From Gammaproteobacteria bacterium (GTDB lineage Bacteria; Pseudomonadota; Gammaproteobacteria; Xanthomonadales; SZUA-36), in the NCBI GenBank assembly GCA_024279945.1, contig JAJRRA010000080.1:62001-126000 (forward strand): DNA of 64,000 bases, written 5' to 3'. The notes under the pieces are model-generated. The model ran no database searches and was not told where the DNA came from. It was given only the letters and a program-made list of their open reading frames with translations. The position numbers and the translations under genes were made by a program. Within the stretch, counting starts at the first letter, position 1; the number at the start of each line of letters is the position of its first letter. Positions 11,674-57,114 of this stretch are shown in pieces.

Positions 11674-13826
11674 CAACTCACCAGTTCAAAGTCAATTTTC
11701 CGTTCATCCACGCTAACGGCCACAACCCGCACGTTCACTTTTTGCGCCAGTTGGAAAACTTTACCGCTGCGGTCACCCGTCAGACGGTGGACCACGGGAT
11801 CAAAATGATAATAATCATTGGGCAAAGAAGTAATATGCACCAGGCCGCTGACCCGGTTTTTCTCCAGGTCAATGAACAGGCCGAACGAGGTGACGCCCGT
11901 TACCTGCCCCTTGAATTCATCACCGATATGCTGCTCCATGAAATAGGCTTTCAGGCGGCCCAGCACATCCCACTCAGCCTCCTCGGCACGCCGGGAACGG
12001 TGAGAACTCTGTTCACAGAGTTTTTCCATACGCTGGCGGGAATAACCGTAACCCTTGGCACTCCGGTGCTCCAGGACATGATGGATGGCGCGGTGCACCA
12101 GCAGGTCGGGATAGCGCCTGATGGGTGAAGTGAAGTGGGCATAGGCCTCCAGCGCCAGCCCAAAATGACCGGCATTATTCACCTGGTAACTGGCCATGCT
12201 CTGGGCCCGCAGCAAAACCGCCATAATCAGGGACTTGTCCGCCCTGCCCTTGACCTGTTGCACGATCTGTTCAAAATCCCGGGGCGTGGGGCGGACTTTC
12301 CAGGTAATCCGGATGCCGAGGCTGCGTAAAAACTGTTCCAGCGGTTCCAGTTTCATCGCCGGAGGCGGTTCGTGGACCCGGAACGGCGCCGGTATCTGGT
12401 TACGCAACAGGAAGTTTGCGGCCTCTACGTTTGCCGTGATCATGCATTCCTCAATCAGCAGGTGCGCGTCATTGCGCTCAAGCGGCACAATATCCGCCAC
12501 GGCGCCGCGTTCATCGAACAGGAACTTCACTTCCGAGCCTTCAAAATCAATCGCCCCACGGCGGGTTCGGGCCCGACGCAGAGCCTGGAACAGCCCATGC
12601 AGATCTTTCAGCGAACGGGAAACTGCAGACATATTCTGCCTGATTTCCGGCTGACCACTGACCAGCCAGTCCCAAACCTCCCGATACGTCAGGCGTGCCT
12701 GTGACCGCATGACGGCAGCATCAAAGCGCGAACGCGTGACCTGGCCCTTGTCATTGATCGACATGTCACAAACAAGGCACAGGCGCTCCACCTCCGGGTT
12801 CAGCGAACACAGGCCGTTGGACAGGGCTTCGGGCAGCATCGGAATGACCCGGCCCGGGAAATACACTGAAGTGGCGCGGTTCTCCGCCTCCTGATCGAGT
12901 GCGCTGTCGGGACTGACATAATGGGAAACGTCGGCGATAGCCACCACCAGGCGCCATCCGTTCTTGCGCCGCTGGGCATAAACTGCGTCATCGAAATCAC
13001 GCGCATCAGCACCGTCAATAGTCACCAGGGGAAGATCACGCAGATCGCGCCGACCGCTGATCATCGCCTCGGTCACCTGATCACCGAAGGCCCGCGCCTG
13101 CTCCTCTACACCTTTTGGCCATTCATGGGGCAGACCGAAATTGCGCACGGCAATTTCCGTCGCCAGGCCCGGAGCACCGCTTTCCCCCAGGATCTCAATC
13201 ACACGGCCGACCGGCGGCTGTCGCTCGCCGGGTTGCTGGATAATCTCCGCCACAACCACCTGCCCCGGACGGGCGCCGGCGGTGTCGGGTAGTGGAATAA
13301 TCACATCCTGGTTGATCCGGGGATCGTCAGGAACCACCAGTGCGATGCCGCTTTCCTCAATGAATCGCCCGACAATTTTGTCATGGGCGCGCTCCAGAAT
13401 TTCCCGGATCGCACCTTCGCGCCTGCCCCGCGCATCTACGCCAATCACGCTGGCCATCACCCGGTCCCCGTGCAGTACTCTGCGCATCTGGCGCGACGAA
13501 AGATACAGGTCGGAACCTCCTTCGTCCGGCATCACAAAACCATAGCCGTCCTTGTGGGCGCTGACCCGCCCGGCCACCAGGTCCATTTTCGCCGGCAGAC
13601 CATAGGCATTGCGACGATTCTTGATTAACTGCCCATCGCGAATCATGGCCCTCAATCGGCGGCGCAATATCTCGCGACTGTCGGCGGACTTAACGTCCAG
13701 GCGCTCAATCATGTCCTGCCGTTTCAAAGGCTTGCCGTGATCTTCCAGTAAAGCAAGTATGGTCTGCCGGTCCGGCGCCTCGGCGCGGATGGTCCGTCTC
13801 CCGGAGGAGTCATGTCGTGTATTCAC
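11673..13826 (-). CDS. rnr: Ribonuclease R
   Basis: Processive 3'-5' exoribonuclease for structured RNA. 717 residues from a GTG at 13826: N-terminal winged helix (about 18-80), two cold-shock domains (about 80-230), the RNB catalytic domain with the acidic cluster DGADARDFDD at residues 271-280, and an S1 domain that ends the protein. E. coli RNase R has a lysine-rich tail beyond S1 that is absent here. Translationally coupled to rlmB. Confidence 0.95.
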   Translation of the reverse strand: MNTRHDSSGRRTIRAEAPDRQTILALLEDHGKPLKRQDMIERLDVKSADSREILRRRLRAMIRDGQLIKNRRNAYGLPAKMDLVAGRVSAHKDGYGFVMPDEGGSDLYLSSRQMRRVLHGDRVMASVIGVDARGRREGAIREILERAHDKIVGRFIEESGIALVVPDDPRINQDVIIPLPDTAGARPGQVVVAEIIQQPGERQPPVGRVIEILGESGAPGLATEIAVRNFGLPHEWPKGVEEQARAFGDQVTEAMISGRRDLRDLPLVTIDGADARDFDDAVYAQRRKNGWRLVVAIADVSHYVSPDSALDQEAENRATSVYFPGRVIPMLPEALSNGLCSLNPEVERLCLVCDMSINDKGQVTRSRFDAAVMRSQARLTYREVWDWLVSGQPEIRQNMSAVSRSLKDLHGLFQALRRARTRRGAIDFEGSEVKFLFDERGAVADIVPLERNDAHLLIEECMITANVEAANFLLRNQIPAPFRVHEPPPAMKLEPLEQFLRSLGIRITWKVRPTPRDFEQIVQQVKGRADKSLIMAVLLRAQSMASYQVNNAGHFGLALEAYAHFTSPIRRYPDLLVHRAIHHVLEHRSAKGYGYSRQRMEKLCEQSSHRSRRAEEAEWDVLGRLKAYFMEQHIGDEFKGQVTGVTSFGLFIDLEKNRVSGLVHITSLPNDYYHFDPVVHRLTGDRSGKVFQLAQKVNVRVVAVSVDERKIDFELVS

Positions 13827-13839
13827 AGTTTTCTTTCCC

Positions 13840-13873
13840 AGTGTGGTGTAACGTATAAATGGTACACCACACT
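13840..13873. promoter_or_regulatory. 11-nt perfect inverted repeat upstream of rnr
   Basis: AGTGTGGTGTA at 13840-13850 faces its exact complement at 13863-13873 across a 12-nt spacer. It lies between the stop of the sigma-54 activator gene and the rnr start. It could be a transcription end for the activator gene or an operator before rnr; no long T run follows on either strand, so the role is open. Confidence 0.55.
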
Positions 13874-13902
13874 AGATGTTTCCCTGAACCGGAAAATACA
13901 CT

Positions 13903-15600
13903 TCAGGCAAGATTAAATTTCTTCATGCGATAGCGACATTGCGGTGCACTCATACCTAGCGATCGTGCCGCCTTGTTGACATTACCCTCTGCTTCCTGCA
14001 GTGCGCCTTCAAGCAGGTTTTTTTCAAAATGATCAAAACTGCCCACTCCCTGTTCGATGAACAGTTGGAATGCATTTTTCTTCGCACCACCACCTGCTGA
14101 AGAAACCAACTCGCCGGCCCGCGTAACCCTGGATGCGTCCACATCTTCAGTTGGCATCCCCATACAAACCGAATCGGTTTCAATCAGCTCACTGTCTTCG
14201 GTAAGAATCACACCCCGCTCGATCAGGTTTTCCAGTTCGCGTACGTTACCGGGCCACTGGTACGCCCGAAACCGGGACATAATCTTGTCGGTGACACCGC
14301 TGACGTTTCTTCCATAGCGGGAATTGAAACGATCAAGAAACTTACGGATCAATCCGGGTATGTCCTCTAGCCTCTCACGCAGGGGAGGAATAACGATTGG
14401 GAAAATATTGATGCGGTAATAGAGGTCAACGCGGAATTTCCCGAGCTGGACCAACTCTTCAAGATTGGCGTTGGTCGCAGCAATCAGGCGAACATCGACT
14501 TTGCGTGTCCGGGTGTCACCCACCCGGTCAAATTCACCGTGCTGGAGCACCCGCAGCAGCTTGGATTGGGCATCCAGGGACAGTTCACCAATTTCATCCA
14601 GAAACAGTGTTCCGCCATGCGCGCGCTCGAAACGACCCGCCCTGGACACTTCAGCGCCGGTGTAGGCGCCTTTTTCGACACCAAATAATTCTGCCTCAAC
14701 CAGCCCTTCCGGCAGCGCGGCACAGTTGACGGTAATAAAGGGATCATCCCGGCGCGGCCCCATCTTGTGCAGGACACCGGCAAAAGTTTCCTTGCCCACC
14801 CCGGTTTCGCCCAACATCAGAACGTTCACGTCCGTTTTGGCCGCCTTTTCGATGATGATCAGCACTTCGGTAATGCTGGGGGACTGCCCAACAATGGATT
14901 CCGGAGGGATAACGGGGGAAATAATCTCCCGCAGGTTCTGAACCTCGCTTTGCAATGAGTAGAGCTCTTCTGCCATGGAATCCTGGCTGAAGAGCTTTTT
15001 TAATTCCTCTGCCTCTTCCCACTCCTTCAATGGCTTACCGATGATTCGGCACTGATCGTCTCCCTTGCCGATACACTCAACTTCTTTGAAGACCACCGGC
15101 ACCTTCATTAACTCGGATGTGTATCCGCTCGCATAACCGATCTGATGCCAACACACCGGCGTCTTACTCAGTCCCTGCGATGCGAGGTGTTGTTCAGCCT
15201 CAAAAGAATTCTGCCAGATATATTCCGCAAAGTAGTGACCGGAGGCAATATCCATCTCAAACTGCACTTGCGTGACATGCACGATGCCCTCCAGGGCGTG
15301 GAGCTGCGGGCCCACGGCAAAGGCATCTTCATCGCTGGCCTGGGGCCGCAACCTGCGTGCAAAGTGGGCATCTGCTTCGCCGGATTTCAGCCCCATACGA
15401 AACAGCACACCCTTGGCATTCTCTGTCCCCAGGGATCTGAACAGCTCGTCACGCAGGCTGCCGAAAGCGGTAGTATGCAACAACATGACGCGCTGCTGCT
15501 CCAGCCAGATGCAGCCCGTACCTGCATCAAAGCGCACCGAACTTCTCAGGTCGCTTATATCAGGAAACTGGTGGAATTCTTCTGGAATCTGCGAGCCCAT
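13903..15600 (-). CDS. Sigma-54-dependent activator of the XylR/DmpR/PoxR type
   Basis: Enhancer-binding protein that senses an aromatic effector directly. The frame opens at a TTG (15642), but a terminator-like hairpin separates that codon from the ATG at 15600, which I prefer (565 residues). Order: N-terminal effector domain (about 15-115) and V4R-type domain (about 115-205, including CIGKGDDQCR), a linker, AAA+ domain with Walker A GETGVGKE near 270 and the sigma-54 contact loop GAYTGA near 315, and a Fis-type helix-turn-helix with VNKAARSLGMSAPQCRYRM at the end. Its place after the phenol carboxylation genes makes phenol or a relative the likely effector and the ppsA promoter the likely target. 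Confidence 0.9.
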   Translation of the reverse strand: MGSQIPEEFHQFPDISDLRSSVRFDAGTGCIWLEQQRVMLLHTTAFGSLRDELFRSLGTENAKGVLFRMGLKSGEADAHFARRLRPQASDEDAFAVGPQLHALEGIVHVTQVQFEMDIASGHYFAEYIWQNSFEAEQHLASQGLSKTPVCWHQIGYASGYTSELMKVPVVFKEVECIGKGDDQCRIIGKPLKEWEEAEELKKLFSQDSMAEELYSLQSEVQNLREIISPVIPPESIVGQSPSITEVLIIIEKAAKTDVNVLMLGETGVGKETFAGVLHKMGPRRDDPFITVNCAALPEGLVEAELFGVEKGAYTGAEVSRAGRFERAHGGTLFLDEIGELSLDAQSKLLRVLQHGEFDRVGDTRTRKVDVRLIAATNANLEELVQLGKFRVDLYYRINIFPIVIPPLRERLEDIPGLIRKFLDRFNSRYGRNVSGVTDKIMSRFRAYQWPGNVRELENLIERGVILTEDSELIETDSVCMGMPTEDVDASRVTRAGELVSSAGGGAKKNAFQLFIEQGVGSFDHFEKNLLEGALQEAEGNVNKAARSLGMSAPQCRYRMKKFNLA

Positions 15601-15616
15601 ATATTTTTCATCAAAA

Positions 15617-15636
15617 GGGGGAGCATAATCTCCCCC
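15617..15636 (-). terminator. Intrinsic terminator after ubiX
   Basis: On the minus strand GGGGGAG, a 6-nt loop and CTCCCCC form a perfect 7-bp GC-rich stem followed directly by TTTT. It lies between the ubiX stop (15663) and the activator ATG (15600), so it probably ends most transcripts of the phenol operon before the regulator gene. Confidence 0.7.
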
Positions 15637-15662
15637 CCTCAAAGTATCAATATCAAGCGGTG

Positions 15663-16259
15663 CTATTTGGCAGTCGATGCCTGGGTGACTTCCTCGGGTT
15701 TTGAGCCCCAGCGGCGGAAAAGATTGTGCTTGATGCCGATCTGGTCCAGCACCTTGCCGATACTTTGGTTGATGATGTCCTGAATCGTCTGTGGTCCATG
15801 ATAAAACGATGGCATGGGCGGCAGTATGGTAGCCCCCAGGTCGGCACAGCGCGCCATCATGTCCAGATGTCCCTTGTGCAGCGGTGTTTCACGAACCATC
15901 ATCACCAGGGGACGTTTTTCCTTCAGGGTCACATCTGCTGCCCGCGTAATCAGGTTATCGCTATAGGAATTGGCAATGCCGGACAGGCTTTTTATGGTAC
16001 AGGGCACCACCACCATACCCCGGGTGAGAAAGGAACCGCTGGCCACAGCAGCGCCGACATCCTTGTTGTTGTAAACCACATCGGCCAGTGCCCGCACTTC
16101 TTTGCTGGAGTAGGACGTTTCAATGGCCAGATTGCGCCCGGCAGATTCACTCAAAACCAGGTGGGTCTCAACGTCTGTTTTTTGCAAAGCCTTGAGAAGT
16201 TCCACACCATAGATAACACCTGAAGCACCCGTGATACCGACAACAAGGGGTAAACTCAT
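15663..16259 (-). CDS. ubiX: Flavin prenyltransferase UbiX
   Basis: Joins a dimethylallyl group to reduced FMN to make prenylated FMN, the cofactor of UbiD decarboxylases. 198 residues with the FMN-binding start VVGITGASGVIYG (residues 5-17), the VPCTIKSLSGIANSYSDNLI region (about 88-107) and RAADVTLKEKRPLVMMVRE, in which family active-site residues lie. The ATG overlaps the stop of the LpdD-like gene by four bases. Its operon contains a UbiD homologue that needs this cofactor. Confidence 0.93.
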   Translation of the reverse strand: MSLPLVVGITGASGVIYGVELLKALQKTDVETHLVLSESAGRNLAIETSYSSKEVRALADVVYNNKDVGAAVASGSFLTRGMVVVPCTIKSLSGIANSYSDNLITRAADVTLKEKRPLVMMVRETPLHKGHLDMMARCADLGATILPPMPSFYHGPQTIQDIINQSIGKVLDQIGIKHNLFRRWGSKPEEVTQASTAK

Positions 16260-16663
16260 TTTGAAAGCTCCTGTTTCTGTAGTTTTACCGTCAACAGACG
16301 GGTTATTTCTCCAATCCTCGATCCGATTTCTGAGATTTCTTCCTGACTGAGTCCATCCCAGTGGATACCGGCCGTGACAACGACATGGGTGTTCAGGACC
16401 GCCGACAAATGCTCTGATACCGGTTTTACAATTTCATCTTCCTTGTGTCCCGGGTAAGTCAGTACGGAGCAAGTCGCACTTTTTTTATCCGGTTGAGCCA
16501 GACTGGGCCTCGGCTGAGCGGCTGCGACAGCGCCGATGTGCGGCCGGGTTCCCCCCCAGATCCAGACCAGGATATCCTCACCAACACGAATTGCTCTGGC
16601 TTCGACCGCCAGGCTTGCCTCTTGCGTACAGACATATATTCCGTCAGCCGGATCAGGCGTCAT
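16256..16663 (-). CDS. LpdD-like prenylated-flavin chaperone
   Basis: A 135-residue protein resembling LpdD, the small partner of gallate and protocatechuate decarboxylases thought to help load prenylated flavin into UbiD enzymes. The recognisable core is GEDILVWIWGGTRPHIGAVA (about residues 28-47), then SVLTYPGHKEDEIVKP and VVVTAGIHWDGLSQEEI. The start overlaps the upstream CBS gene and the stop overlaps ubiX, so it is translationally coupled on both sides. Family assignment is by pattern memory; a profile search would confirm it. Confidence 0.7.
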   Translation of the reverse strand: MTPDPADGIYVCTQEASLAVEARAIRVGEDILVWIWGGTRPHIGAVAAAQPRPSLAQPDKKSATCSVLTYPGHKEDEIVKPVSEHLSAVLNTHVVVTAGIHWDGLSQEEISEIGSRIGEITRLLTVKLQKQELSK

Positions 16664-17327
16664 TCAACTCCACCACCGGTTTACCTTTGAAATTCTTTTC
16701 CAATACAGTAAATCCTTCATCCTCAAATATCTCAATCAGGCTATCCAGTTTGTCGGTTTCGAAACGAATCACAATTCGTTTGTATTCCTCCCCCTCCTTT
16801 GGAAGCGGATAGATGGACTGCAGCCTGGCGCCATTTTCATCAACGATGGCTGCTATGCCATTTATATCGCGAGGGCTGGTGCTGGTAGCTTGTAAAGTGA
16901 CGCCACTGTAATTGTCCCAGGCCCCGATAATATGGGCTGCCATGGCAAAAATTTCTGTCGCCGTAATGATGCCGACAACCTTGCCGTCATCCAGTACGGG
17001 GAACTGACTTTTGCCGTCTTCCTGCCCCATGCGCAAACAGCGCTCCATGGTGTCTTCAGTATTAACCGTTGCCGGACGACGCACCATTATATCCTTCACC
17101 CTGAGCTTGTTGGTAAAGTAATCAAATTCATAATTATCCTGGGTGCGGGCAACATTTTCCGCTGCACGCAGACAATGAGCACGGGTCAGCAATCCGCGCA
17201 AAATACCCTCGTCCACCACCGGTACGGCCCGGACACTCTGATCCGAGAAGATACGATAGGCCTTGGCCAGTAACATGCTACTCTCTATCGTTGTCGGGTC
17301 GGGTCTCATCCAATTACGTACGATCAT
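16653..17327 (-). CDS. ppsC: CBS-domain protein, phenylphosphate synthase subunit PpsC-like
   Basis: 224 residues with two CBS domains (about 4-60, beginning NWMRPDPTTIES, and 75-130, beginning VKDIMVRRPATVN) and an ACT-like C-terminal segment (about 140-215). In Thauera aromatica the third phenylphosphate synthase protein is a CBS protein of about this size that strongly stimulates the kinase; the same role is inferred here from size, domains and position. CBS pairs usually bind adenosine nucleotides, so it may tune the enzyme to energy charge. Confidence 0.8.
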   Translation of the reverse strand: MIVRNWMRPDPTTIESSMLLAKAYRIFSDQSVRAVPVVDEGILRGLLTRAHCLRAAENVARTQDNYEFDYFTNKLRVKDIMVRRPATVNTEDTMERCLRMGQEDGKSQFPVLDDGKVVGIITATEIFAMAAHIIGAWDNYSGVTLQATSTSPRDINGIAAIVDENGARLQSIYPLPKEGEEYKRIVIRFETDKLDSLIEIFEDEGFTVLEKNFKGKPVVELNDA

Positions 17328-17349: not shown

Positions 17350-18600
17350 TCAGGCTTGTGCGGCCGCTGCCTGCTTGAAAAGAGAAACAAATTCAGAAAC
17401 GGCAGCCTGGGCGAATTCTGGTGTGTACAAGTGTAAATCCACTTCCCTGATGGCATCTGGATTGTTCAGTTTTTCTTTCAGGCGTTCGACAAATACGGCA
17501 TCCGCCACCGGGTCATAGTTCTGTCGCCCTTCACGATCCAGTGAGGACCAGCCCTTGAGTGGAATCATAAAGGTAAAGGGGCCGGTGGACTGATTGAGGC
17601 GCTCTGCAATGACATCGGCAGCATGGCGTAATTCATCCGCGCTGCTGCGCACCTGGATACGCAGTGCATCCTGCACATACTGTGAGCGATCCCGGGTTTC
17701 TTCCAGCTTGTCTGCGCGCCCGCCATAACTCAGCATATCCAGTCCACAGGGCGCCAGTACCGTGGGAATGCCGCGCCGAATCGCCGCCATGAGCCGATCC
17801 GGGCCCGGATCGCGGTTGCCGTCGTACAGGTTTTCCAGCACACCGCCGATACAGATGTCCATGACGCCATCAAAAGCACCGTCGGCAATCATCTCCTCCA
17901 TCGCCTTGTCGCCCTTACCCTGGGCATGACAGACGATGGGAATAAAACCTTCATCTTCAAGCATGCCGACCGCAGTCTGAACGGCCATTTCACCAAAACC
18001 AAATCCGGTGATCGCAATCACCGGTTTGTCGAAGCTGAAATCCGTGCCACCGGTCATTTCAACCATGCCGCAAATAGCGCCGACTGCATTGGTAATCTGC
18101 GCCTTCAGCAGCGGATTCATCTTGACGATATCGAGCACGGTGTGGTGCATGGTGATGTCACGGGTACCGACGTATTTATCAATGTAGCGGGGATGCGCAG
18201 CCATGGGTGACGCCATCACTTTGGGCATGCCGAAAGGCAAACGCCTCATGATGCTGGTGGCGACCAGGGTTGCCGTCCCGCCGCCAACACCAAACACACC
18301 GTGTATTTTGTTTTCCTGCAGGAGTTCATCGACAATCAGCGCCGCACCCCTGATCTGATTTTCCGTTGCCCGGTCCCGATCAACGCGATAGCACTCACGC
18401 ACGGTCTCGATATCGAGTCCGCCGCGTTGTGCAATCTGTTCACAAGTGATATCACCGGCAAAAGGAGGAGGGTCTTCCATGGAAAAATCAAGCAGAATGG
18501 CATTGTGGCCACGCCGTTCAATCAGTTCCTTGACAAAGATGATGTCTTCGCCGCGCGTATCCAGGTTGCAGATAATTGCAATACCCTTCTTTCCACTCAT
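17350..18600 (-). CDS. Tm-1-like ATP-binding (UPF0261) protein
   Basis: A 416-residue protein of the Tm-1-like/UPF0261 family, begun by KGIAIICNLDTRGEDIIFVK and with the glycine-rich GVFGVGGGTATLVATSIMR stretch near residues 101-119 and ITGFGFGEMAVQTA near 197. Plant Tm-1 is a viral-replication inhibitor that binds ATP; the bacterial function is not established. It lies 22 bp upstream of ppsC and 146 bp downstream of ubiD, inside the carboxylation operon, so a part in phenylphosphate metabolism is inferred only from position. Confidence 0.8.
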   Translation of the reverse strand: MSGKKGIAIICNLDTRGEDIIFVKELIERRGHNAILLDFSMEDPPPFAGDITCEQIAQRGGLDIETVRECYRVDRDRATENQIRGAALIVDELLQENKIHGVFGVGGGTATLVATSIMRRLPFGMPKVMASPMAAHPRYIDKYVGTRDITMHHTVLDIVKMNPLLKAQITNAVGAICGMVEMTGGTDFSFDKPVIAITGFGFGEMAVQTAVGMLEDEGFIPIVCHAQGKGDKAMEEMIADGAFDGVMDICIGGVLENLYDGNRDPGPDRLMAAIRRGIPTVLAPCGLDMLSYGGRADKLEETRDRSQYVQDALRIQVRSSADELRHAADVIAERLNQSTGPFTFMIPLKGWSSLDREGRQNYDPVADAVFVERLKEKLNNPDAIREVDLHLYTPEFAQAAVSEFVSLFKQAAAAQA

Positions 18601-18670
18601 GATGTTATGTAGTCCCTTGGATTATTTGCTGCACAGAGTGACCCAGCCACTCCGTTAGTTATCAGAAATA

Positions 18671-18727
18671 CCGGGCGACGCAATAGACCGCGCCGCCCGG
18701 GAAGTGACTGGCCGCTGAGAAGCGGCC
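18671..18727 (-). other. Two intercistronic hairpins after ubiD
   Basis: Between the ubiD stop and the Tm-1-like start are two perfect 7-bp stems: CCGGGCG (18671-18677) with CGCCCGG (18694-18700), and GGCCGCT (18710-18716) with AGCGGCC (18721-18727) around a GAGA tetraloop. There is no T run, so they look more like RNA-processing or mRNA-stability elements than terminators. Confidence 0.55.
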
Positions 18728-18746
18728 GGCACTATTCCTGCTTTCC

Positions 18747-20219
18747 TTACGAGCCTGGTTTGACCAGACGATCGATCATATTGGCTACCGGGCTGGCTCC
18801 GTCAAAGCCATATTCATTCCAGCGATCCGAGACTTTCTGCAGAACCTTGCGGTCCATGAAGATCTCATTCGGCTTGTTTTCCCACTCAAACGGCGTGCAG
18901 GCATCAAGAATGATACGGCTGGTAATATCCCGCGCCTCAATCGGCAAACCGGGATCCAGAGGGGTAGACCGGCCACGGTCGATAATCTGCGCGGACCGTT
19001 TGGGATCAAAGCGGGTGGACAGGGCCCACCAGATGCGATCCCAGTCATCCACTGCAATATCATGATCGACCACGATCACACCCTTCAGGCCATAGTGTCC
19101 TGTCGTGGTTGCGATAACCGCGTTGCCGACATGGTTTGAATGGCCGGGGTATTTCTGCCGCACCGATACCACTGCCCAGAAACGACCACAGGCTTCAGCC
19201 GGAATATAAACGCCTTCGATACCCGGCACCCGCATGGTTTCAAGATCGTGCCAGAGTGTTGCCGTGCGGTTGAGTGACTGGATCATGTGAATGTCATTGA
19301 TCGGCTTACCGACCGTTGTTGACCACATAGTGGGCTTGTTGCGGTAAATGATGCGTTCGACACGCAAAATGGGCTTGGGATAATCCTTGCCCTTGTTGCC
19401 GGAATAATAGCCGGTGTATTCACCGAACGGGCCTTCTTCCATCAATTCGTTCGGGTCGATATAACCCTCGGCAATAATCTCTGCATTGGCCGGCAGGGTC
19501 AGGCCGGTCAGATCCGACTTGAAAACCGGTACGGGGCGTTGGCGCAGTGAACCGGCGATATCGTATTCATCGGTCTCGGCGCTGACCAGGGTGGATCCGG
19601 CGAGGAACAGCACCGGGTCACAACCGACAACCGCTGCAGCAGGCATCAGCTGACCGCGTTCCTGGTATTTCTTCATGTGGAAGTCGCCGTGCTTGCCCTT
19701 GATGATCTGCGAGCCCAGTATGTTTTTACCCAGCACCTGGGAACGATAGGTGCCCAGATTGGTCCAGCCCGTGTCGGGGTCCTGAGTCACCAGGAAGCCG
19801 GAGGTTACAAAAAACCGGCCGCCGTCATCGGGATAAAACCAAGGCACAGGAAATTTGAGGAGATCAACATCATCACCTTCAATGACGTTTTCCAGTACCG
19901 GCGGATTATCGACATATTCAGGCTTGACCAGTTTCTGCGTGGTCAATTCCATCCATTTCTTGGACAGTTGGGACATCGGAAGGTCCGGATCCTGCTCAAG
20001 CGCAATGGCTAAACGTCTGGGTGTGGTAAAAGCACTGGTAAATAAAGGAATCTCCGGGTAATCCTTGACATTTTCGTAGAGTAGCGCAGGGCCTTTAGCC
20101 TCCTCGTTTACCTTGGAAACGTGACAGGCTTCCAGGTTCCAGTCCACCTCTGCGGTGACACGGTGTAACTCGCCGTGTTCATCCAACGCTTTGATGAAAT
20201 CTCTCAGATCATTAATCAT
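18747..20219 (-). CDS. UbiD-family decarboxylase, phenylphosphate carboxylase-like
   Basis: prFMN-dependent (de)carboxylase; in this operon the likely reaction is carboxylation of phenylphosphate to 4-hydroxybenzoate. The ATG at 20219 has an AGGAG ribosome site 8 bp before it, giving 490 residues, the normal UbiD size. The first segment INDLRDFIKALDEHGELHRV, the GRFFVTSGFLVTQDPDTGW region (about 130-148) and the conserved acidic EEGPFGEYTGYY block (about 264-275) belong to UbiD. Thauera uses two UbiD-like subunits; only one is present here, so this may work as a simpler enzyme. Confidence 0.88.
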   Translation of the reverse strand: MINDLRDFIKALDEHGELHRVTAEVDWNLEACHVSKVNEEAKGPALLYENVKDYPEIPLFTSAFTTPRRLAIALEQDPDLPMSQLSKKWMELTTQKLVKPEYVDNPPVLENVIEGDDVDLLKFPVPWFYPDDGGRFFVTSGFLVTQDPDTGWTNLGTYRSQVLGKNILGSQIIKGKHGDFHMKKYQERGQLMPAAAVVGCDPVLFLAGSTLVSAETDEYDIAGSLRQRPVPVFKSDLTGLTLPANAEIIAEGYIDPNELMEEGPFGEYTGYYSGNKGKDYPKPILRVERIIYRNKPTMWSTTVGKPINDIHMIQSLNRTATLWHDLETMRVPGIEGVYIPAEACGRFWAVVSVRQKYPGHSNHVGNAVIATTTGHYGLKGVIVVDHDIAVDDWDRIWWALSTRFDPKRSAQIIDRGRSTPLDPGLPIEARDITSRIILDACTPFEWENKPNEIFMDRKVLQKVSDRWNEYGFDGASPVANMIDRLVKPGS

Positions 20220-20274
20220 ATGTCCTACTCCTTTGTTTAGTGAATTCAGTTCTCGGGTCATTTAAAGAACTTCT

Positions 20275-20347: not shown

Positions 20348-21433
20348 TTATTCCACTCTTACTCCCGCCATGACGGAAGATAAGATATGTTCCATTGCAG
20401 ATTTCTCGCCCCCTGATACGGGTTCGCTTTTCTTGTTTGCCCATACGGTTTCCGGGCGGGCCTGGAGAATAAAGATATTTCCTCCACTGACCATGTCGTT
20501 GTCTACCGCCCATTCGATATCCATCGGCGCGCCGTAGTGTTGTTCAATGACCTTGCCCATGCGAGCCAGTTCGGTGATTTCCTCATCAACAATCGACTGA
20601 ACATTCTGTCTTTCGGCGGGAAGATCCACCAGTTTGGAGGAATGTGTTTCGTGGTCCACCATGTAAGCGACCTCTTTGGTCGTAATGGTTCGTTCCACCG
20701 TATCCAGTGAGATTTTATTGACCATGAACACGTCAGGCGTCACCTCGCCGGAGACCACCGCCTCACCGAATCCAAAACTGGAATTGATCAATATCATGGA
20801 GCGGTCGCCGGAGCTTGGGTTTAGCGTGAACATGACCCCGGCAGCGTAGGAATTGGCCATCTTCTGAATACCCACACTGAGCGCGACTGCGGCATGGTCA
20901 AAATTCATACGCACCCGGTAAGCGATGGCCCGGGCCGAAAAAAGTGAAGAAAAACATTTTTTGGTGTGAACAAGCACATCGTCAATGCCCCTGATCCACA
21001 GGAAGGTATCCTGCTGACCGGCAAAACTGGCGCCGGGCAGATCTTCGGCGGTTGCGCTGGAACGGATCGCAACCGGGACGGCCGGAACATTACAATGGAT
21101 GGAAAGTATCCGGTAACGTTCGGCAATCTGGTCTTCAAGTTCAGTGGAAAAATCCGCCGCTTCGATCATGGCCCGGATTCGGTTGCTGGCGGCTTTTTGC
21201 CGGTCAATATCGTCTTCACCAATGCTCGCCAGTTCGTGGTGGATGGCCTCCATCAGACCGGCTCCGTCAATAAAGTCCCGAAAGCCATTGGTGGTCACGG
21301 CAAAGCCAGGCGGAACCCGTATGCCGGCATTGATCAATTCCCCCAGAGAGGCACATTTCCCACCAACCAGGTCGACGGAATCTCTGTTGCAATCTGCAAA
21401 ATTACACACCAGTGGTGCGGGTGTTGTGTTCAT
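20348..21433 (-). CDS. ppsB: Phenylphosphate synthase ATP-binding subunit (PEP synthase N-terminal half)
   Basis: Corresponds to the N-terminal ATP-grasp half of PEP synthase as a separate protein. From the ATG at 21433 it has 361 residues, including VGGKCASLGELINAGIRVPPG in the N-terminal lobe (about 23-42), VAIRSSATAEDLPGASFAGQQ in two blocks near 120-140, GFGEAVVSGEVTPD (about 221-234) and a final IFILQARPETVW. In Thauera a 40-kDa protein of this type and the 70-kDa PpsA form phenylphosphate synthase, which converts phenol and ATP to phenylphosphate, AMP and phosphate. A strong hairpin lies between this gene and ppsA. Confidence 0.87.
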   Translation of the reverse strand: MNTTPAPLVCNFADCNRDSVDLVGGKCASLGELINAGIRVPPGFAVTTNGFRDFIDGAGLMEAIHHELASIGEDDIDRQKAASNRIRAMIEAADFSTELEDQIAERYRILSIHCNVPAVPVAIRSSATAEDLPGASFAGQQDTFLWIRGIDDVLVHTKKCFSSLFSARAIAYRVRMNFDHAAVALSVGIQKMANSYAAGVMFTLNPSSGDRSMILINSSFGFGEAVVSGEVTPDVFMVNKISLDTVERTITTKEVAYMVDHETHSSKLVDLPAERQNVQSIVDEEITELARMGKVIEQHYGAPMDIEWAVDNDMVSGGNIFILQARPETVWANKKSEPVSGGEKSAMEHILSSVMAGVRVE

Positions 21434-21478
21434 TGATTTCCCTACCCGAATAAATACAATCAGCAAACTAAATAATCA

Positions 21479-21513: not shown

Positions 21514-23343
21514 TTAAAGCAATTCCACTTCACCGGTCGAACCGTTGACCCGGATCATCTGACCGGATTGAACAATTTTTGTGGCGCTGCCGGTACCCAC
21601 GATGGCCGGTAAACCATATTCACGGCAAACAATGGCGGCATGGCTCATGACGCCGCCGACATCGGTTACACAGGCTTTGATTTTCACAAAAGCTGGCGCC
21701 CATGAAGGTGATGTGGTCGGTGCAACCAGGATCTCACCTTCCTCCAACTCACCGATCTCCTTAACCGTTCGGCATACTCGCGCCTTGCCTTCAACGATGC
21801 CGGGGCTGCCGGCAAAGCCCTTGATGACACTGACATCACCATCGGCCCCTGATATCTCGGCCCAGTTGGCCAGGGAGTCATTGGTTACACCCCAGAGCAC
21901 CACCGTAAAGGGCTCCTGGATAACCTCGGGCGCCGGCCCCAGCGCGGGGATAGGCGACCACTGACTGAATTTCTCCATGACACCCTTGCGCCATTCGATC
22001 TCTTTGGGCCAGACCTGTGGGCCGCGGGGTTTGACACCCGTCGCCCATGCCGTGACCAAATCCCACAATGCATCCTTGATTTCGCCCCGTTTCAACAGCC
22101 AGATATCTTCTACATCGCCGAGGAAACCGTGCTCTTTCATGATCGCACCAACGTCACGGATCTTGTTCCAAAAGACGGAATGGAACCAGTGCTCGACATA
22201 GAAAAGGTGGTTTTCCACATAGGGAAAAACGGTTTTAGCGGTAGCCAGCAACTGGTCAAAGGCTGCAATGTCTTCGTCGTTGTCGATCAGTGCACGGTAT
22301 TCAGCGGTGATGCGATCACGTTCAGCACGAACCGCCTCAATGGGACGTTCGATGGAATCACCGGCAAGAATCTTGTCGGCATAAGTGCAGATTGAACCCA
22401 GGGGAATATCCAGGTCGTCATTCCAGGACCGGTCATGGTGATACCAGCCGGTACCGGTGGAGACATTGAACCAGGGGTAACGTGCCTTTTCAAACGCGGC
22501 CAGCCACTGCTTGCCGGTGTCCAGTTGCTGCAGAGCGGATTTGACCTCGCTGAATGAGGCGCTGCTCTTGATGGCATCAACCAGCTCCAGCTGAACTGCT
22601 TGCCGGGCCAGGGTTCTCAACTCTTCATCCGGCTGGTACATGATGACGTCAATTCCGGAAATCATCTGGGTAACGCGCTGCAGAGGAATATCCGGCCACA
22701 GTTTCTGGCAATGCCCCATAAAGGTGACATAGGCGGCATAACCCAGGTTCAGGAACTCAAAATGGTACTGCCAGCAGCGAATACCCAGATCAATGACGGT
22801 GTCATAGTTCTTCAGCAACTGGTAACCGGATGACTCGCCTACCCCGTCGGTGACAACGGACAGATCCTCAAGATCGGGTAAGGGAGAAATATCCACCGCC
22901 TCCAGTTCAGCGATGGTCTTTTTCATTTTTTCTTCCCACTTGGCTTCAAGTTCGTTCCAGTTTTCGTAGTAGTAGCCTGCACGCTCCATGAAGTTGGGAA
23001 TTCTCGCTTCAATCTCCTTGGGGTCCGTTACCGGTACAGGCGAAATATAGGCATAGCCGTTTATCATGCGGTGATCCACACCCATCACCGGCGGTATGGA
23101 AAATATTCTGTGACTGAACTGGGACAGCGCCAGAAAGCACGCCTCGTCCCAAATGGTGTCAAAGGGATAAAGCGGCTCGGGATAGTGCAAGCCATCATAA
23201 AACCAGAACGTTTCTTTCTCGTATCGTTCGCGCTCAGGATCATCAGTAACGAACTGATAATGATAGGGGTACATTCTTTCCCAGCCTTCAGTCCCCGGGA
23301 TAGTTTCTACTTCGTGTGGAACAGGGAATACGGTATTGGCCAT
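21514..23343 (-). CDS. ppsA: Phenylphosphate synthase phosphohistidine subunit
   Basis: The 609-residue partner of PpsB carrying the substrate-binding region and the swivelling phosphohistidine domain. The frame extends to 23463, but the ATG at 23343 has a GGAGG site, and the sigma-54 promoter lies inside the longer frame, so 23343 is the start. The C-terminal domain contains VAPTTSPSWAPAFVKIKA (about 533-550) and the catalytic His in GGVMSHAAIVCREYG (His about 568). The first 450 residues have no PEP-binding barrel, as expected for an enzyme that phosphorylates phenol. First gene of the operon. Confidence 0.88.
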   Translation of the reverse strand: MANTVFPVPHEVETIPGTEGWERMYPYHYQFVTDDPERERYEKETFWFYDGLHYPEPLYPFDTIWDEACFLALSQFSHRIFSIPPVMGVDHRMINGYAYISPVPVTDPKEIEARIPNFMERAGYYYENWNELEAKWEEKMKKTIAELEAVDISPLPDLEDLSVVTDGVGESSGYQLLKNYDTVIDLGIRCWQYHFEFLNLGYAAYVTFMGHCQKLWPDIPLQRVTQMISGIDVIMYQPDEELRTLARQAVQLELVDAIKSSASFSEVKSALQQLDTGKQWLAAFEKARYPWFNVSTGTGWYHHDRSWNDDLDIPLGSICTYADKILAGDSIERPIEAVRAERDRITAEYRALIDNDEDIAAFDQLLATAKTVFPYVENHLFYVEHWFHSVFWNKIRDVGAIMKEHGFLGDVEDIWLLKRGEIKDALWDLVTAWATGVKPRGPQVWPKEIEWRKGVMEKFSQWSPIPALGPAPEVIQEPFTVVLWGVTNDSLANWAEISGADGDVSVIKGFAGSPGIVEGKARVCRTVKEIGELEEGEILVAPTTSPSWAPAFVKIKACVTDVGGVMSHAAIVCREYGLPAIVGTGSATKIVQSGQMIRVNGSTGEVELL

Positions 23344-23415
23344 GGTTTTTCCTCCGAGACGTCGTGTCGCGTAATATTTGAGACTATTCTTCGACGGTGT
23401 ATCAGTATGTCTATA

Positions 23416-23431
23416 TGCAAAGGGTATGCCA
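23416..23431 (-). promoter_or_regulatory. Sigma-54 (-24/-12) promoter for the phenol operon
   Basis: Read on the minus strand: TGGCAT, 5 nt, TTGCA, matching the consensus TGGCAC-N5-TTGCW with one change outside the invariant GG and GC. The -12 GC is about 75 bp upstream of the ppsA ATG. The operon also encodes a sigma-54 activator of the phenol-sensing type, which makes this the obvious target. Confidence 0.82.
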
Positions 23432-23596
23432 AGAAATTTTCCAGGCTGATAATCAACTTTCAAACCGGAGGAGAATATTCTGCTGATCTTTAACTAAACT
23501 GATGTTTCCAAAAGCGAATATGATTATTCACGATCCATGATCCTGAAACTGCCAGAAAAACGGCCGGGGAATGGAGGCATTTTTTTCAGGACTTCA

Positions 23597-23651: not shown

Positions 23652-24725
23652 TCAATAATCAATAATCGTCTTAAGCTCAGCCACGCTGCTGATTACCGCA
23701 TCCGGACCTTCCCTGCTCAAAGTATCGAGGTCATCGAAACCGGTGAGAACTCCGATGGTTGTCATCCCGGCAGATTTACCAGACTCGATATCGGATTTGG
23801 AATCTCCGATATAGACACTGTTCTCCAGCGCCACTCCCAGTTGGCGGCAGCACTCAATCATGGGGTCCGGGGCGGGCTTCTTCCTCGGCGCATCACAGGA
23901 TGTCACTATTGCCGCAAAGTGACTCAAGGTGCCGTTACGTTCAAGCTGATCCAATTTGAAACCCATATTCGCCCGCGGCGTTGAGGTTACGATACCCAGC
24001 TTGAAACCGGCCGCAGCGAGACCATCCAAGGTACTTTTCATCCCCGGAATGGGCAGGGCTTCGATTTCAAACATGGGTCCATAGACTTTTTCCACCACGG
24101 ACTGGATTTGGGCCAGCACATCAGATTGCTCAACGTCTACGGACTCCGGCAAGACCTTGTCCCACTCAAACTCGCCACTTCTGGCCGCCGCTTTCATGAC
24201 CGCTGCTGACACTTCCGGAAAACCAAGCTCAGTCAGGGCCATATTGACAATCTTGTAATAAATCCCGATGGAGTCCAGCAGGGTCCCATCCAGGTCAAAT
24301 ATGACTGCTGTCAAAAGGATTTCCCCCGGACGATCTACCGACAGGGTAAGCCGCCTGCCGTCCTGCAGGCCGAGGGACGCCCGCAGTTCCACCGGCGCCA
24401 TCACTTCAATAAGCTGCTCGCCGTGGATATTTACCTTGCTGTCAGGAATGATGATGCAGCCTTTGATACCTTCTACGGAGAGGGGAATCACCTTGCCCGA
24501 ACACGCACCGTTTTCCGGTGGAATCAACTCAATCGCATCCACTCGCTGTATTTCTCCAAGGGCTGAAAAACAGTTCGGATCAATAATCAGGTTGAGGGTT
24601 CCGGGAAAGGGGGCGAAACCAAGTTTTTCCCGGCACTGCTCCTGCACCCAGGACAGTTGGGTGAAGTGTGCCGCAGTTCGAGACCCACTCACCACCCTTC
24701 CCTGCAAAATCCATTTACGTTTCAT
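23652..24725 (-). CDS. Fusion: CTP-dependent riboflavin kinase-like domain plus HAD phosphatase
   Basis: 357 residues in two parts. Residues 1-132 match the archaeal riboflavin kinase fold (DUF120): QGRVVSGSRTAAHFT, then KLGFAPFPGTLNLIID (about 34-49) and LIEVMAPVELRASLGLQDGR (about 105-124). Residues 138-357 are a HAD phosphatase with all motifs: FDLDGT (Asp about 144), IVTSTPR, RKKPAPDP and YIGDSKSDIESG. Thauera phenylphosphate carboxylase has a HAD-type delta subunit (PpcD), so the HAD half may be that. The kinase-like half suggests FMN supply for UbiX. It lies upstream of the ppsA promoter on the same strand. Confidence 0.82.
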   Translation of the reverse strand: MKRKWILQGRVVSGSRTAAHFTQLSWVQEQCREKLGFAPFPGTLNLIIDPNCFSALGEIQRVDAIELIPPENGACSGKVIPLSVEGIKGCIIIPDSKVNIHGEQLIEVMAPVELRASLGLQDGRRLTLSVDRPGEILLTAVIFDLDGTLLDSIGIYYKIVNMALTELGFPEVSAAVMKAAARSGEFEWDKVLPESVDVEQSDVLAQIQSVVEKVYGPMFEIEALPIPGMKSTLDGLAAAGFKLGIVTSTPRANMGFKLDQLERNGTLSHFAAIVTSCDAPRKKPAPDPMIECCRQLGVALENSVYIGDSKSDIESGKSAGMTTIGVLTGFDDLDTLSREGPDAVISSVAELKTIIDY

Positions 24726-44148: not shown

Positions 44149-44802
44149 TCAGCTCAGTTCAAGCCGGCTCATCAGTCGCAGCAAGCTGCCGTCCGGGTCC
44201 TTCACATCAAACCAGTAACTCTGCATGCCAACGGCTTCGGCACCACTGCAGTTCGCGTGCAGGTCATCAATAAAAAGACACTGCTCCGGGGGCAGGGAAA
44301 GCATCCGCGCGCTGGCCAGATAGGGTTCTGGAGCCGGTTTTCTGACGCCGATCGTCTGCACATCCAAAATGGCGTCAAAGAGTCGACGATAGGGCCACGT
44401 TTCCCACCAGCGCTCGCCGAGCCACCGGCTGGCGTCATTGGTGAGCACCATCTGTCGAAAGCCCGCGACCTGCAGGCGCTCGATGGCTTCCCAGGTATTG
44501 GGGCGCTCACCAGTGCTGAAATCAAGGTCCTGGTAAGGTGAAAAAGTAATGCCCTCTTTTGCCAGCGCTGTGAGCAGTCGTTTCACATATTCCGATTCGT
44601 TAAACTCGCCCCGGTCCATGGCGGCGTAAGAGGGATCCGGCGCAGGCCCCGTCGGACCCAGCGGGATGTGTTCCAGCGGCCAGCCCTGCTCGATACCCAC
44701 ATCAAGCATCAACTCCGTGAAGAATCGATACATAATGCCACCCATGTCCCAGATGATGGCGCTGGGTAAGACGTAAACCGGGTTTCCCGTTGACAGCATC
44801 AT
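44149..44802 (-). CDS. HAD-superfamily hydrolase, subfamily IA, altered motif I
   Basis: 217 residues. Motif I reads IIWDMGGIMY: the nucleophile Asp (about residue 19) is kept but the second Asp, the general acid in DxD phosphatases, is Gly. Motif II VLTNDASRW, motif III lysine in GVRKPAPEPY and motif IV FIDDLHANCSGA are present. HAD-IA proteins with DxG in motif I are known (YihX and epoxide hydrolase N-terminal domain group). Last gene of the nine-gene operon, 8 bp after the SDR gene; it may dephosphorylate an intermediate. Confidence 0.8.
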   Translation of the reverse strand: MMLSTGNPVYVLPSAIIWDMGGIMYRFFTELMLDVGIEQGWPLEHIPLGPTGPAPDPSYAAMDRGEFNESEYVKRLLTALAKEGITFSPYQDLDFSTGERPNTWEAIERLQVAGFRQMVLTNDASRWLGERWWETWPYRRLFDAILDVQTIGVRKPAPEPYLASARMLSLPPEQCLFIDDLHANCSGAEAVGMQSYWFDVKDPDGSLLRLMSRLELS

Positions 44803-44810
44803 TTTTCCGC

Positions 44811-45569
44811 TCAGTTGAACTGGCGACCACCGTCTACGACGAGCGTTTGACCGGTGACGAAATCGCTGTCCGGCGCGGCAAAAAACAGCAATGCTCCGAT
44901 CAGGTCGTCAGCCTGTTGTGCCCGCTTGATCGCACCGCGATTCACGCCGTATTGCGCTGCTTCCTCAATCAGTTGCAGGCTGGCTTCGGTGAGCGTGAAG
45001 CCAGGAGCAATGGCATTGACGCGGATGCCGTAATCTCCAGCTTCCCGGGCCAGCGCCCGGGTAAGCCCGATCACGCCGCCTTTTGAAGCGACGTAATGAG
45101 CCCACAATGGTGAGCCGCTGTAGAATGTGGCTGATGTGATGTTGATGATGCTGCCACCACGTTCACGCATGAAGGGAAACACCGCACGCGCACAGAGCCA
45201 GGGGCCCTTGAGGTTAACTGCCATCAACTCGTCCCATTCACTGGAAGTGATCTCGAAGAACGGCTTGCGGGTGATGCCGCCATAAATACCGGCGTTGTTG
45301 ACCAGCACATCGATCCGCCCCCAGCGCTGCGCTACCGAGCCTGCCATCCGTTCTACCGAAGCTTCTTCAGCTACATCAAGCTCCATCTCGATTGCTTCAC
45401 CGCCCTGCGCGATGATCTGCTCAACCGTGCCGGCGGCACCGTCCAGCTTGCAATCAGCCACCACCACCCGCGCACCCGCAGCCGCCAGCGCCAGTGCAAA
45501 CGAGCGGCCCAGACCACCTCCGGCGCCCGTTACGATTGTCACCTGCCCGTTCAACTTTGTTTCAGACAT
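44811..45569 (-). CDS. Short-chain dehydrogenase/reductase
   Basis: 252 residues, classical SDR. Cofactor motif TGAGGGLGRS (about 15-24), NNAG (about 91-94), catalytic Ser in NITSATF (about 143) and YVASK with Tyr and Lys (about 158-162). The acidic residue after the second strand (VVADCKLDG) suggests NAD+ rather than NADP+. Substrate unknown; in this operon it could oxidise an alcohol to a ketone or aldehyde. Confidence 0.88.
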   Translation of the reverse strand: MSETKLNGQVTIVTGAGGGLGRSFALALAAAGARVVVADCKLDGAAGTVEQIIAQGGEAIEMELDVAEEASVERMAGSVAQRWGRIDVLVNNAGIYGGITRKPFFEITSSEWDELMAVNLKGPWLCARAVFPFMRERGGSIINITSATFYSGSPLWAHYVASKGGVIGLTRALAREAGDYGIRVNAIAPGFTLTEASLQLIEEAAQYGVNRGAIKRAQQADDLIGALLFFAAPDSDFVTGQTLVVDGGRQFN

Positions 45570-45617
45570 GATCCGCCTCAGTCACAGCAACAGGAGAGCA
45601 AACCGATTTGTGGTCTC

Positions 45618-47054: not shown

Positions 47055-47086
47055 TATTTAACTCCCGACTTGTGGCTCAGACCGGA

Positions 47087-48124: not shown

Positions 48125-48145
48125 TTGCTCCCGGATGAATTCAGA

Positions 48146-49855: not shown

Positions 49856-49892
49856 TGTCTTCCTCCTTTTGTCCTTTTCGTACAAATATTCT

Positions 49893-52981: not shown

Positions 52982-53006
52982 GGCTAGTGCTCCTTTTGAA
53001 AGTACA

Positions 53007-53816: not shown

Positions 53817-53835
53817 ATACCCTCCGGTGGCCGCT

Positions 53836-55497: not shown

Positions 55498-55578
55498 TAT
55501 TCTTTCTCCTCGATCCGGATGTTCCTGATTTCCGGTCGAGGTTAGCAAGGCCATCCTTCGCCTGTCAAGCATTTTTCT

Positions 55579-55600
55579 AACAGTTGTTCGATTTTTCGAA
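55579..55600. promoter_or_regulatory. Candidate TetR operator in divergent promoter
   Basis: AACAGTTGTTC-G-ATTTTTCGAA; within it TTCGA-TTTT-TCGAA is a perfect palindrome (55587-55600). The motif is shared with 32762-32782. It lies in the 122-bp region between the FAD oxidoreductase start (55497) and the TetR gene (55620), positioned to control both. Confidence 0.62.
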
Positions 55601-55619
55601 TTATGGTTTAATATACGCA

Positions 55620-57101: not shown

Positions 57102-57114
57102 ACAGTCGTCGCTG

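Follow-up and report, generated by a model that had tools for sequence, protein, structure and literature searches.

In Thauera and Aromatoleum, phenol carboxylation relies on the phenylphosphate synthase PpsABC, whose alpha and beta subunits correspond in the published naming to the 70-kDa and 40-kDa proteins, respectively (PMC6114531), and on the phenylphosphate carboxylase PpcABCD. The alpha, beta and gamma subunits of the Thauera carboxylase exchange CO2 with 4-hydroxybenzoate, and the delta subunit PpcD, which belongs to a phosphatase family, slowly hydrolyzes phenylphosphate when alone and restores phenylphosphate carboxylation (PMC6114531). For Geobacter metallireducens and Desulfatiglans anilini, the phenol clusters are reported to contain a PpcB homologue as the sole carboxylase gene, and a different mechanism has been suggested; in D. 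anilini, reportedly no PpcC was found in the genome, homologues of PpcA and PpcD lie elsewhere in it, and a phenol-induced protein of unassigned function, annotated as "2,3-dihydroxybenzoate-AMP ligase", is encoded a single locus tag away from PpcB (PMC6114531). The text of that paper does not name the D. anilini locus 02057. Acetovanillone is processed by the Hpe/Acv pathway (HpeHI, HpeCBA and HpeD), and its breakdown in Novosphingobium is reported to start with MarK, a one-component kinase (2026 paper). The tomato protein Tm-1, which shares the UPF0261 domains discussed below, inhibits a plant virus (PMC5028733). In the open-licence literature searched, we found no report linking a UPF0261 or Tm-1-like protein to phenol or phenylphosphate degradation, and no paper on Saro_1862 or on AcvF with acetovanillone.

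The window, namely the whole 64,000-nucleotide stretch of DNA analyzed here, contains a phenol carboxylation cluster with a UPF0261 gene in its midst. All of the cluster genes, from position 24725 down to 13903, lie on the minus strand, and are listed below in the order of transcription together with the one intergenic gap of interest.

23652 to 24725, minus strand: DUF120 domain (CTP-dependent riboflavin-kinase type, archaeal-type) fused to a HAD phosphatase (PF01982, PF13419)
21514 to 23463, minus strand: phenylphosphate synthase 70-kDa subunit with a PEP-utilisers swivel domain (PF00391; NF006152 above cut-off)
20348 to 21466, minus strand: phenylphosphate synthase 40-kDa subunit, PPDK_N, ATP-grasp (PF01326)
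18747 to 20261, minus strand: UbiD-family phenylphosphate carboxylase, PpcB-like, type II (TIGR02724, 551.8 versus a cut-off of 469 bits)
18601 to 18746, minus strand: ubiD-UPF0261 gap with strong hairpins lacking a T run (shuffle folding test)
17350 to 18600, minus strand: UPF0261 (Tm-1-like/MarK-like) protein, ATG start, 416 aa (Pfam/NCBIfam, ubiD adjacency, tree and fold matches)
16653 to 17327, minus strand: two-CBS protein of the PpsC/synthase gamma type (PF00571 twice)
16256 to 16663, minus strand: small PAC_bac-domain (proteasome-assembly-chaperone-like) protein (PF21758)
15663 to 16259, minus strand: UbiX flavin prenyltransferase, supplying the cofactor for UbiD (TIGR00421 and NF004685 above cut-offs)
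13903 to 15642, minus strand: XylR_N/V4R sigma-54 activator, likely the cluster regulator (PF06505, PF02830, PF00158; NF041906 MobR below cut-off)

The model TIGR02724 represents the phenylphosphate carboxylase beta subunit. The 70-kDa and 40-kDa subunits and the CBS protein of phenylphosphate synthase are thus all present, and the locus resembles that of Thauera and Aromatoleum in having the same synthase, a PpcB-like UbiD, the CBS protein, UbiX and a XylR-type regulator. It differs, however, in lacking PpcA, PpcC, PpcD and the third UbiD, in carrying UPF0261 instead, and in having a UbiD only 50-54% identical to its counterpart. The Hpe/Acv pathway likewise employs a synthase-like dikinase, a carboxylase and a separate dephosphorylation, whereas it uses a biotin carboxylase and a NagD-type HAD where the window has UbiD and UPF0261 (PMC9618137). 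HpeD had been considered as a UPF0261 protein and was rejected, being the NagD-type HAD itself. Among the accessory genes, homologues of the XylR_N/V4R activator occurred in 78 of the 80 synthase loci described below. The PAC_bac protein was encoded in 5 of the 34 type II loci that extend at least 7 kb downstream, and also in part of those read in the phylum of L083. The DUF120-HAD fusion adjoins the synthase gene, and 24 of the 25 long type I loci have a stand-alone DUF120-type gene; by inference, the fusion probably serves to supply flavin, possibly as a local source of FMN for UbiX and UbiD. Elsewhere in the window (56297-58068, minus strand), an IS200-like transposase stands beside a T4 gp19-like tail-tube protein, a pair that could be part of a contractile injection system or a phage remnant.

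The Pfam search of the 416-aa protein identified the UPF0261 N-terminal (PF06792, E = 1.6e-49, 168.7 bits) and C-terminal (PF23189, E = 6.2e-65, 218.9 bits) domains, which jointly cover residues 6-407 and both pass the gathering score of 27. The NCBIfam equivalog NF002676 (PRK02399) was narrowly missed (530.7 versus a cut-off of 556 bits). No other UPF0261 match at E ≤ 0.001 was found in the genome of origin, which is 96.98% complete. The initial annotation, made from sequence alone, had placed a Tm-1-like/UPF0261 gene at 17350-18600 between ubiD and the CBS gene (ppsC) with 22 bp to the latter, and both the full-length reading frame with its domains and the 22-bp spacing held exactly. It had further proposed co-expression with the phenylphosphate synthase and carboxylase. 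The 146-bp gap upstream of the gene, however, folds at -62.3 kcal/mol (z = -4.7, equaled by none of 200 shuffles) without a T run, and because of these strong hairpins attenuation or mRNA processing between ubiD and the UPF0261 gene is not excluded.

To define the distribution of the gene, an alignment of the 70-kDa subunit was scanned against one genome per species (84,980 species), and the best 80 of 240 relatives were kept; all 80 loci were thus found through the synthase, and were typed by tblastn with the window proteins. The identity to the window UbiD separated 31 loci (50-54%, type I) from 44 loci (75-88%, type II), and the remaining five had no UbiD on the synthase strand, one being L083 and the other four short or cut pieces. 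UPF0261 was detected by tblastn in none of the 31 type I loci. Eight of the type II contigs were cut inside ubiD, and in 33 of the 36 informative ones UPF0261 lay directly 3' of ubiD at a spacing of 18-194 bp; in L015 and L035 it was located elsewhere in the locus, and it was absent from L026. When the count was restricted to loci reaching 7 kb or more past the 70-kDa gene, using Thauera-type queries from Aromatoleum diolicum (L019), PpcD, PpcA, PpcC and the third UbiD were each present in 25/25 long type I (Aromatoleum/Azoarcus) loci, a layout that also includes PpcB, and UPF0261 in 0/25. Conversely, the 34 long type II loci, the window included, had one UbiD, with UPF0261 in 32 (the exceptions being L015 and L026) and PpcA, PpcC, PpcD and the third UbiD each in 0/34. 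An HMM of PpcD built from the type I proteins likewise gave no significant match in the type II loci (best E = 0.03). The layout contrast gave a Fisher p of 1.2e-14, with the reservation that the rows are not independent and shared ancestry is ignored. The two exclusive layouts, which are thus established as observations, come from alpha- and betaproteobacterial records, and both are found in each of Sulfuritalea and Rubrivivax. Nudix-type genes recurred irrespective of layout, in 20 of the 25 long type I loci and in 8 of the 34 long ones of type II (for instance L059 15768-16313, confirmed by Pfam, L083 16183-16728, and L019 at 20039). Frame breaks were seen in the UPF0261 genes of the type II loci L166 (G406:C13) and L073 and in ubiD of L166; as the genomes are metagenome-derived, these breaks may stem from faulty assembly.

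UPF0261 was then searched for in the whole genomes of 47 of the 80 loci, comprising 31 of type I, the eight type II cut in ubiD, and eight odd ones. The phenol-linked UPF0261 clade defined below was found in 0/31 type I genomes, eight of which hold only distant members (25-32%). In five of the eight cut type II genomes, a clade member (about 76%) was recovered from another contig; the other three had no UPF0261 match genome-wide, which counts against a dedicated role. Among the odd genomes, a clade member was present in L015, L035, L054 and L062, no UPF0261 was matched in L022 and L026, and L083 had two UPF0261 proteins at 34-38% and L081 one distant one at 27%. L026 is a complete type II locus, and yet its genome gave no UPF0261 match, and L159 lacks the gene in its locus, which likewise counts against a dedicated role. 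In the genome of origin, no relative of PpcA above 33% was found, the 33% match being the type II UbiD itself, and the search for PpcC was empty, albeit without a positive control. Its best PpcD-like HAD, 43% identical and on another contig, is likely the housekeeping KdsC. Nevertheless, this HAD, the DUF120-HAD fusion and the HAD of a second dikinase cluster show that other phosphatases are present, which weighs against the role proposed below for UPF0261. In all, 2 of 349 sampled genomes of the window's own phylum, its own included, had a member at E = 1e-55 or better.

To see which genes UPF0261 travels with, we counted changes of layout label on the trees of the individual proteins. The trees of the 70-kDa and 40-kDa subunits (81 rows each) required nine and five changes, whereas those of UbiD/PpcB (74 rows), the CBS protein (67 rows) and UbiX (55 rows) required only one, one and two, respectively. 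Over 40 bootstraps the counts were 8-11 for the 70-kDa subunit, 5-6 for the 40-kDa subunit, 1 for UbiD and 1-3 for the CBS protein; UbiX was outside the bootstrap set. With a single change on the UbiD tree as against many on the synthase trees, UPF0261 travels with the carboxylase and not with the synthase. This cassette behavior is shown by the trees, and UbiD, UPF0261, the CBS protein and UbiX seem to move together behind a shared synthase, which disfavors a role of UPF0261 as a mere extra synthase. The CBS protein "PpsC" itself follows the carboxylase type, with one change against the five to nine of the synthase subunits, and hence its assignment to the synthase may merit a second look. 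In the tree of UPF0261, 54 of 82 rows, all of them pps-linked, were set apart from the rest by a branch with support 100/99, and within the tree a ligase-linked group of nine (type IIb) had support 100/100, with the caveat that several outside rows lie on long branches and were flagged as unsure by the program. The tree holds 82 of 89 distinct rows, seven having been dropped as fragments or mis-started reading frames (two each from L073 and L125, and one each from L106, L123 and L093); the row of L119, longer than 480 aa, was kept and trimmed to its last 440 residues.

That UPF0261 is a hitch-hiker gene without a role in phenol metabolism is all but excluded by these data, given the exclusive layouts in the alpha- and betaproteobacterial records, the related layouts in the phylum of L083, and the tree behavior; we rejected this reading on the layout counts and the movement as a cassette, with nothing found to speak for it beyond a missing phenotype.

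The phylum of L083 (a Desulfarculaceae record), which we take to be Desulfobacterota, provided a further sample. Among 247 genomes, 42 had a synthase-like 70-kDa subunit (E ≤ 1e-100, 41-72% identity), 56 had UPF0261 (E ≤ 1e-55), and 35 had both (Fisher p = 4e-21, odds ratio 44, shared ancestry ignored); the two samples of 247 are taken as the same genomes as their handles agree. Seven genomes had the synthase without UPF0261, among which G436 and G615 carry type I ppc genes and G638 is cut with the same beginning. The layouts were read for 20 of the 42 synthase genomes, plus a few further loci. UPF0261 was present in 10 of the 20, in eight of which an AMP ligase directly precedes it; in L179, ubiD is followed directly by a 59% identical UPF0261 in a type IIa-like manner. 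L184, L186 and L188 were of type I, and the other seven loci without UPF0261 were short or cut, or had no UbiD by the tblastn test. The mutual exclusion was less strict in this phylum: in L235, a 45% UPF0261 comes after type I ppc genes, and G538 and G583 carry a type I ppcB plus a 37-40% UPF0261 on another contig.

Taken together, the link to phenol carboxylation claimed by the initial annotation held, with a strong co-occurrence that is specific to one of the two carboxylase layouts; the lack of co-occurrence across genomes, which it had named as refuting the link, was not what the 80 loci or the 247 genomes showed. Its association of the gene with the synthase requires correction in favor of the carboxylase cassette (UbiD, CBS protein and UbiX). 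Its remark that the protein is not known among those of Thauera fits the 0/31 Thauera-type loci with UPF0261 and the 0/31 of their genomes with the clade, and its assertion that no bacterial function has been settled for the family is superseded by PDB 9MPY and MarK.

The AMP ligase raises the alternative that UPF0261 acts after carboxylation, on 4-hydroxybenzoate or its phosphorylated form, for instance together with this ligase. In its favor, the ligase directly precedes UPF0261 in nine loci (L083 and 8 of the 20 of its phylum), ubiD directly precedes that ligase in five of the nine (L180, L182, L183, L187 and L193), and the ligase occupies the UPF0261 slot in L026 (14583-16262) and in L159 (G120, of the same class as the window's genome), where ubiD is followed by the ligase and the locus has no UPF0261. 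Against it, only L026 and L083 among the 80 loci have the ligase at more than 60% identity, so that typical type IIa loci are without it, and we regard this alternative as very improbable. In L083 itself, the AMP-binding ligase directly before UPF0261 is found at 13284-14933.

A structural model of the window UPF0261 was built with a pLDDT of 89.9 from 32 aligned sequences, and the fold comparison, for which Foldseek was also run, matched Tm-1 (3WRW, Z = 41.1 over 386 residues) and 9MPY (Z = 32.5 over 393 residues, 30% identity). The rmsd of 8.6 to the latter indicates that the two halves are probably set at different angles. PDB 9MPY is Saro_1862, a UPF0261 domain protein of Novosphingobium aromaticivorans with acetovanillone bound, and we infer that MarK is Saro_1862. 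UDP-GlcNAc 2-epimerases and esterases were considered as relatives and dismissed, as their Z scores of 9-12 lie below those of the true relatives and reflect shared Rossmann-like halves only. The window protein consists of the UPF0261 domains only, and by Pfam has no fused TIM-barrel domain; it thus shares the N- and C-terminal domains with Tm-1 (3WRW-3WRY), whose TIM-barrel domain it lacks. With MarK/Saro_1862 it shares the whole-length fold and the family-invariant residues. It differs in that the window has a dikinase and a UbiD rather than a biotin carboxylase, and in having D for G231 and YT for ND.

Regarding the residues, G106, G107, G124, K127, D148, G228, R269, P347, G350 and F396 were invariant in 40 aligned UPF0261 proteins, and these ten positions are also kept in 9MPY and Tm-1, as judged by eye from the alignment. 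G106, G107, K127, D148 and R269 were retained in all 54 clade rows. On the other hand, residue 231, the last G of the HxxGxGG motif, was D in 54/54 clade rows and G in all 28 others, and residues 392-393, the ND of the HIND motif, were YT in 44/44 type IIa rows (35 in pps loci and nine copies on other contigs) and mostly ND in the others. In the MarK-like rows, G231 and N-D were kept in 4/4, and the window-type motifs differ; the use of HxxGxGG and HIND as the defining motifs of the MarK type is our own proposal. A site that is kept but altered therefore fits a changed reaction, although the residues are still unplaced for lack of coordinates. For the ATP-side residues of the family, the data gathered offer no basis, which weighs against the role proposed below.

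Two further alternatives bear on these residues. According to the first, UPF0261 is a second phenol kinase of the MarK kind, converting phenol or substituted phenols with ATP to yield ADP in parallel to the dikinase, with a wider substrate range or a lower ATP cost. The fold and family of 9MPY/MarK, the ten invariant positions, and the MarK-like UPF0261 genes just upstream of biotin-carrier and carboxyltransferase genes, with no dikinase match in the 16-20 kb examined (L163, L164 and L171), speak for it. However, the same synthase serves both layouts, the UPF0261 gene follows the carboxylase, and D231 (54/54) and YT for ND (44/44 type IIa rows) set the clade apart, and thus we judge it unlikely. 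A forward kinase that replaces the window synthase is likewise disfavored, since the window retains an intact synthase and it is the carboxylase that UPF0261 tracks. According to the second, UPF0261 is a non-catalytic carboxylase subunit that binds phenylphosphate, phenol or 4-hydroxybenzoate, or stabilizes UbiD, as PpcC or PpcA might. Tm-1 works by binding another protein (PMC5028733) and the clade departs from the family in two motifs, which favors this view, whereas the retention of G106, G107, K127, D148 and R269 in 54/54 rows suggests a working site and renders it improbable as well.

Other contexts of the family were also inspected. In L163, L164 and L171, a biotin carrier, a carboxyltransferase and a NagD-type HAD are encoded just downstream of the MarK-like UPF0261 gene. 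L163 and L164 have a biotin carboxylase as well, and no dikinase match was obtained in the 16-20 kb examined for the three. Compared with the Hpe layout (PMC9618137), UPF0261 stands where the kinase HpeHI does, and by analogy it is probably the one-component kinase of acetophenone-type pathways in these clusters. L240, L244, L280 and L282 combine UPF0261 with a carboxyltransferase and a dikinase, and L240, L244 and L280 also have a biotin carboxylase. In L170, L172 and L252 (the last by tblastn), UPF0261 stands beside a PEP-hydrolase-like gene. A PEP-hydrolase-like domain is the kind fused to UPF0261 in plants.

The window also contains a second dikinase cluster (44149-55935, minus strand) with an FAD enzyme, ETF beta and alpha, an Fe-S CCG protein, PEP-utilisers, PPDK_N, an aldehyde dehydrogenase, an SDR and a terminal HAD gene (44149-44802), which, as a mere guess, might be an oxidation route of the phospho-cresol type. 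Its syntenic relative L233 (G835) has a UPF0261 (66%) in place of the HAD, and this swap is suggestive, no more, of a phosphoryl-handling reading. Such slot swaps suggest that UPF0261 can fill either a phosphorylating or a dephosphorylating slot. A general law of "two of three", by which a dikinase is paired with HAD or UPF0261, or UPF0261 with HAD, was considered; types I and II obey it, as do Hpe, L164, L171, and L233 versus the second cluster, but it was abandoned because of the exceptions L163 (two UPF0261 and a HAD), L235 (type I genes and UPF0261) and L240 (a low-molecular-weight tyrosine-phosphatase gene nearby). In 12 other pieces with a dikinase and an SDR of the second-cluster type, UPF0261 was present in five (L272, L274, L281, L283 and L284), that of L272 and L281 belonging to a neighboring ligase group. 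The other seven showed neither HAD nor UPF0261; two of them are short, and the HAD queries were too narrow to exclude a HAD. The 12 genomes concerned all have UPF0261 somewhere.

UPF0261 likely belongs to the type II phenylphosphate carboxylase as a dedicated part. Its proposed dephosphorylating step for UbiD is a separate matter, which at present we could as readily deny as affirm, the chemistry being inferred and no activity having been measured for the clade. In the mechanism that we favor over the alternatives, the type II carboxylase would consist of one UbiD and UPF0261, serviced by UbiX, with UPF0261 replacing PpcA, PpcC and PpcD of the Thauera enzyme. UPF0261 would bind phenylphosphate in the site that its relatives are inferred to use for phenol and ATP, transfer its phosphoryl group to either water or ADP, and pass phenol(ate) on to UbiD, which would carboxylate it to 4-hydroxybenzoate. 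In Thauera, this role falls to the HAD subunit PpcD. Since type II lacks alpha, gamma and delta and the relatives of UPF0261 bind phenol and transfer phosphate, it would be the natural stand-in for delta. As a counterargument, 9MPY and MarK point to a forward kinase and hence against the dephosphorylating reading. A bolder version, in which UPF0261 is a phenol kinase run in reverse, passing the phosphoryl group of phenylphosphate or of the carboxylated aryl phosphate to ADP in coupling with UbiD, would therefore regain some of the ATP that the dikinase consumes. The transfer energy of aryl phosphates is lower than that of ATP, which weighs against the ADP route. The bolder version appears unlikely.

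In all, anaerobic phenol carboxylation comes in two genetic versions, of which the alternative one is marked, and probably completed, by UPF0261. The layout would thus predict which organisms use which carboxylase, and UPF0261 provides a concrete candidate for a missing part in beta-only clusters like those of G. metallireducens and D. anilini. It also gives a testable role to a family with plant, fungal and bacterial members, and connects that family with MarK, a kinase described only recently. Should the reverse-kinase version prove true, many anaerobic phenol degraders would possess an energy-saving phenol carboxylase in which the wasteful HAD phosphatase subunit has been replaced. The finding bears on how energy-limited sulfate reducers afford phenol carboxylation, the question left in PMC6114531.
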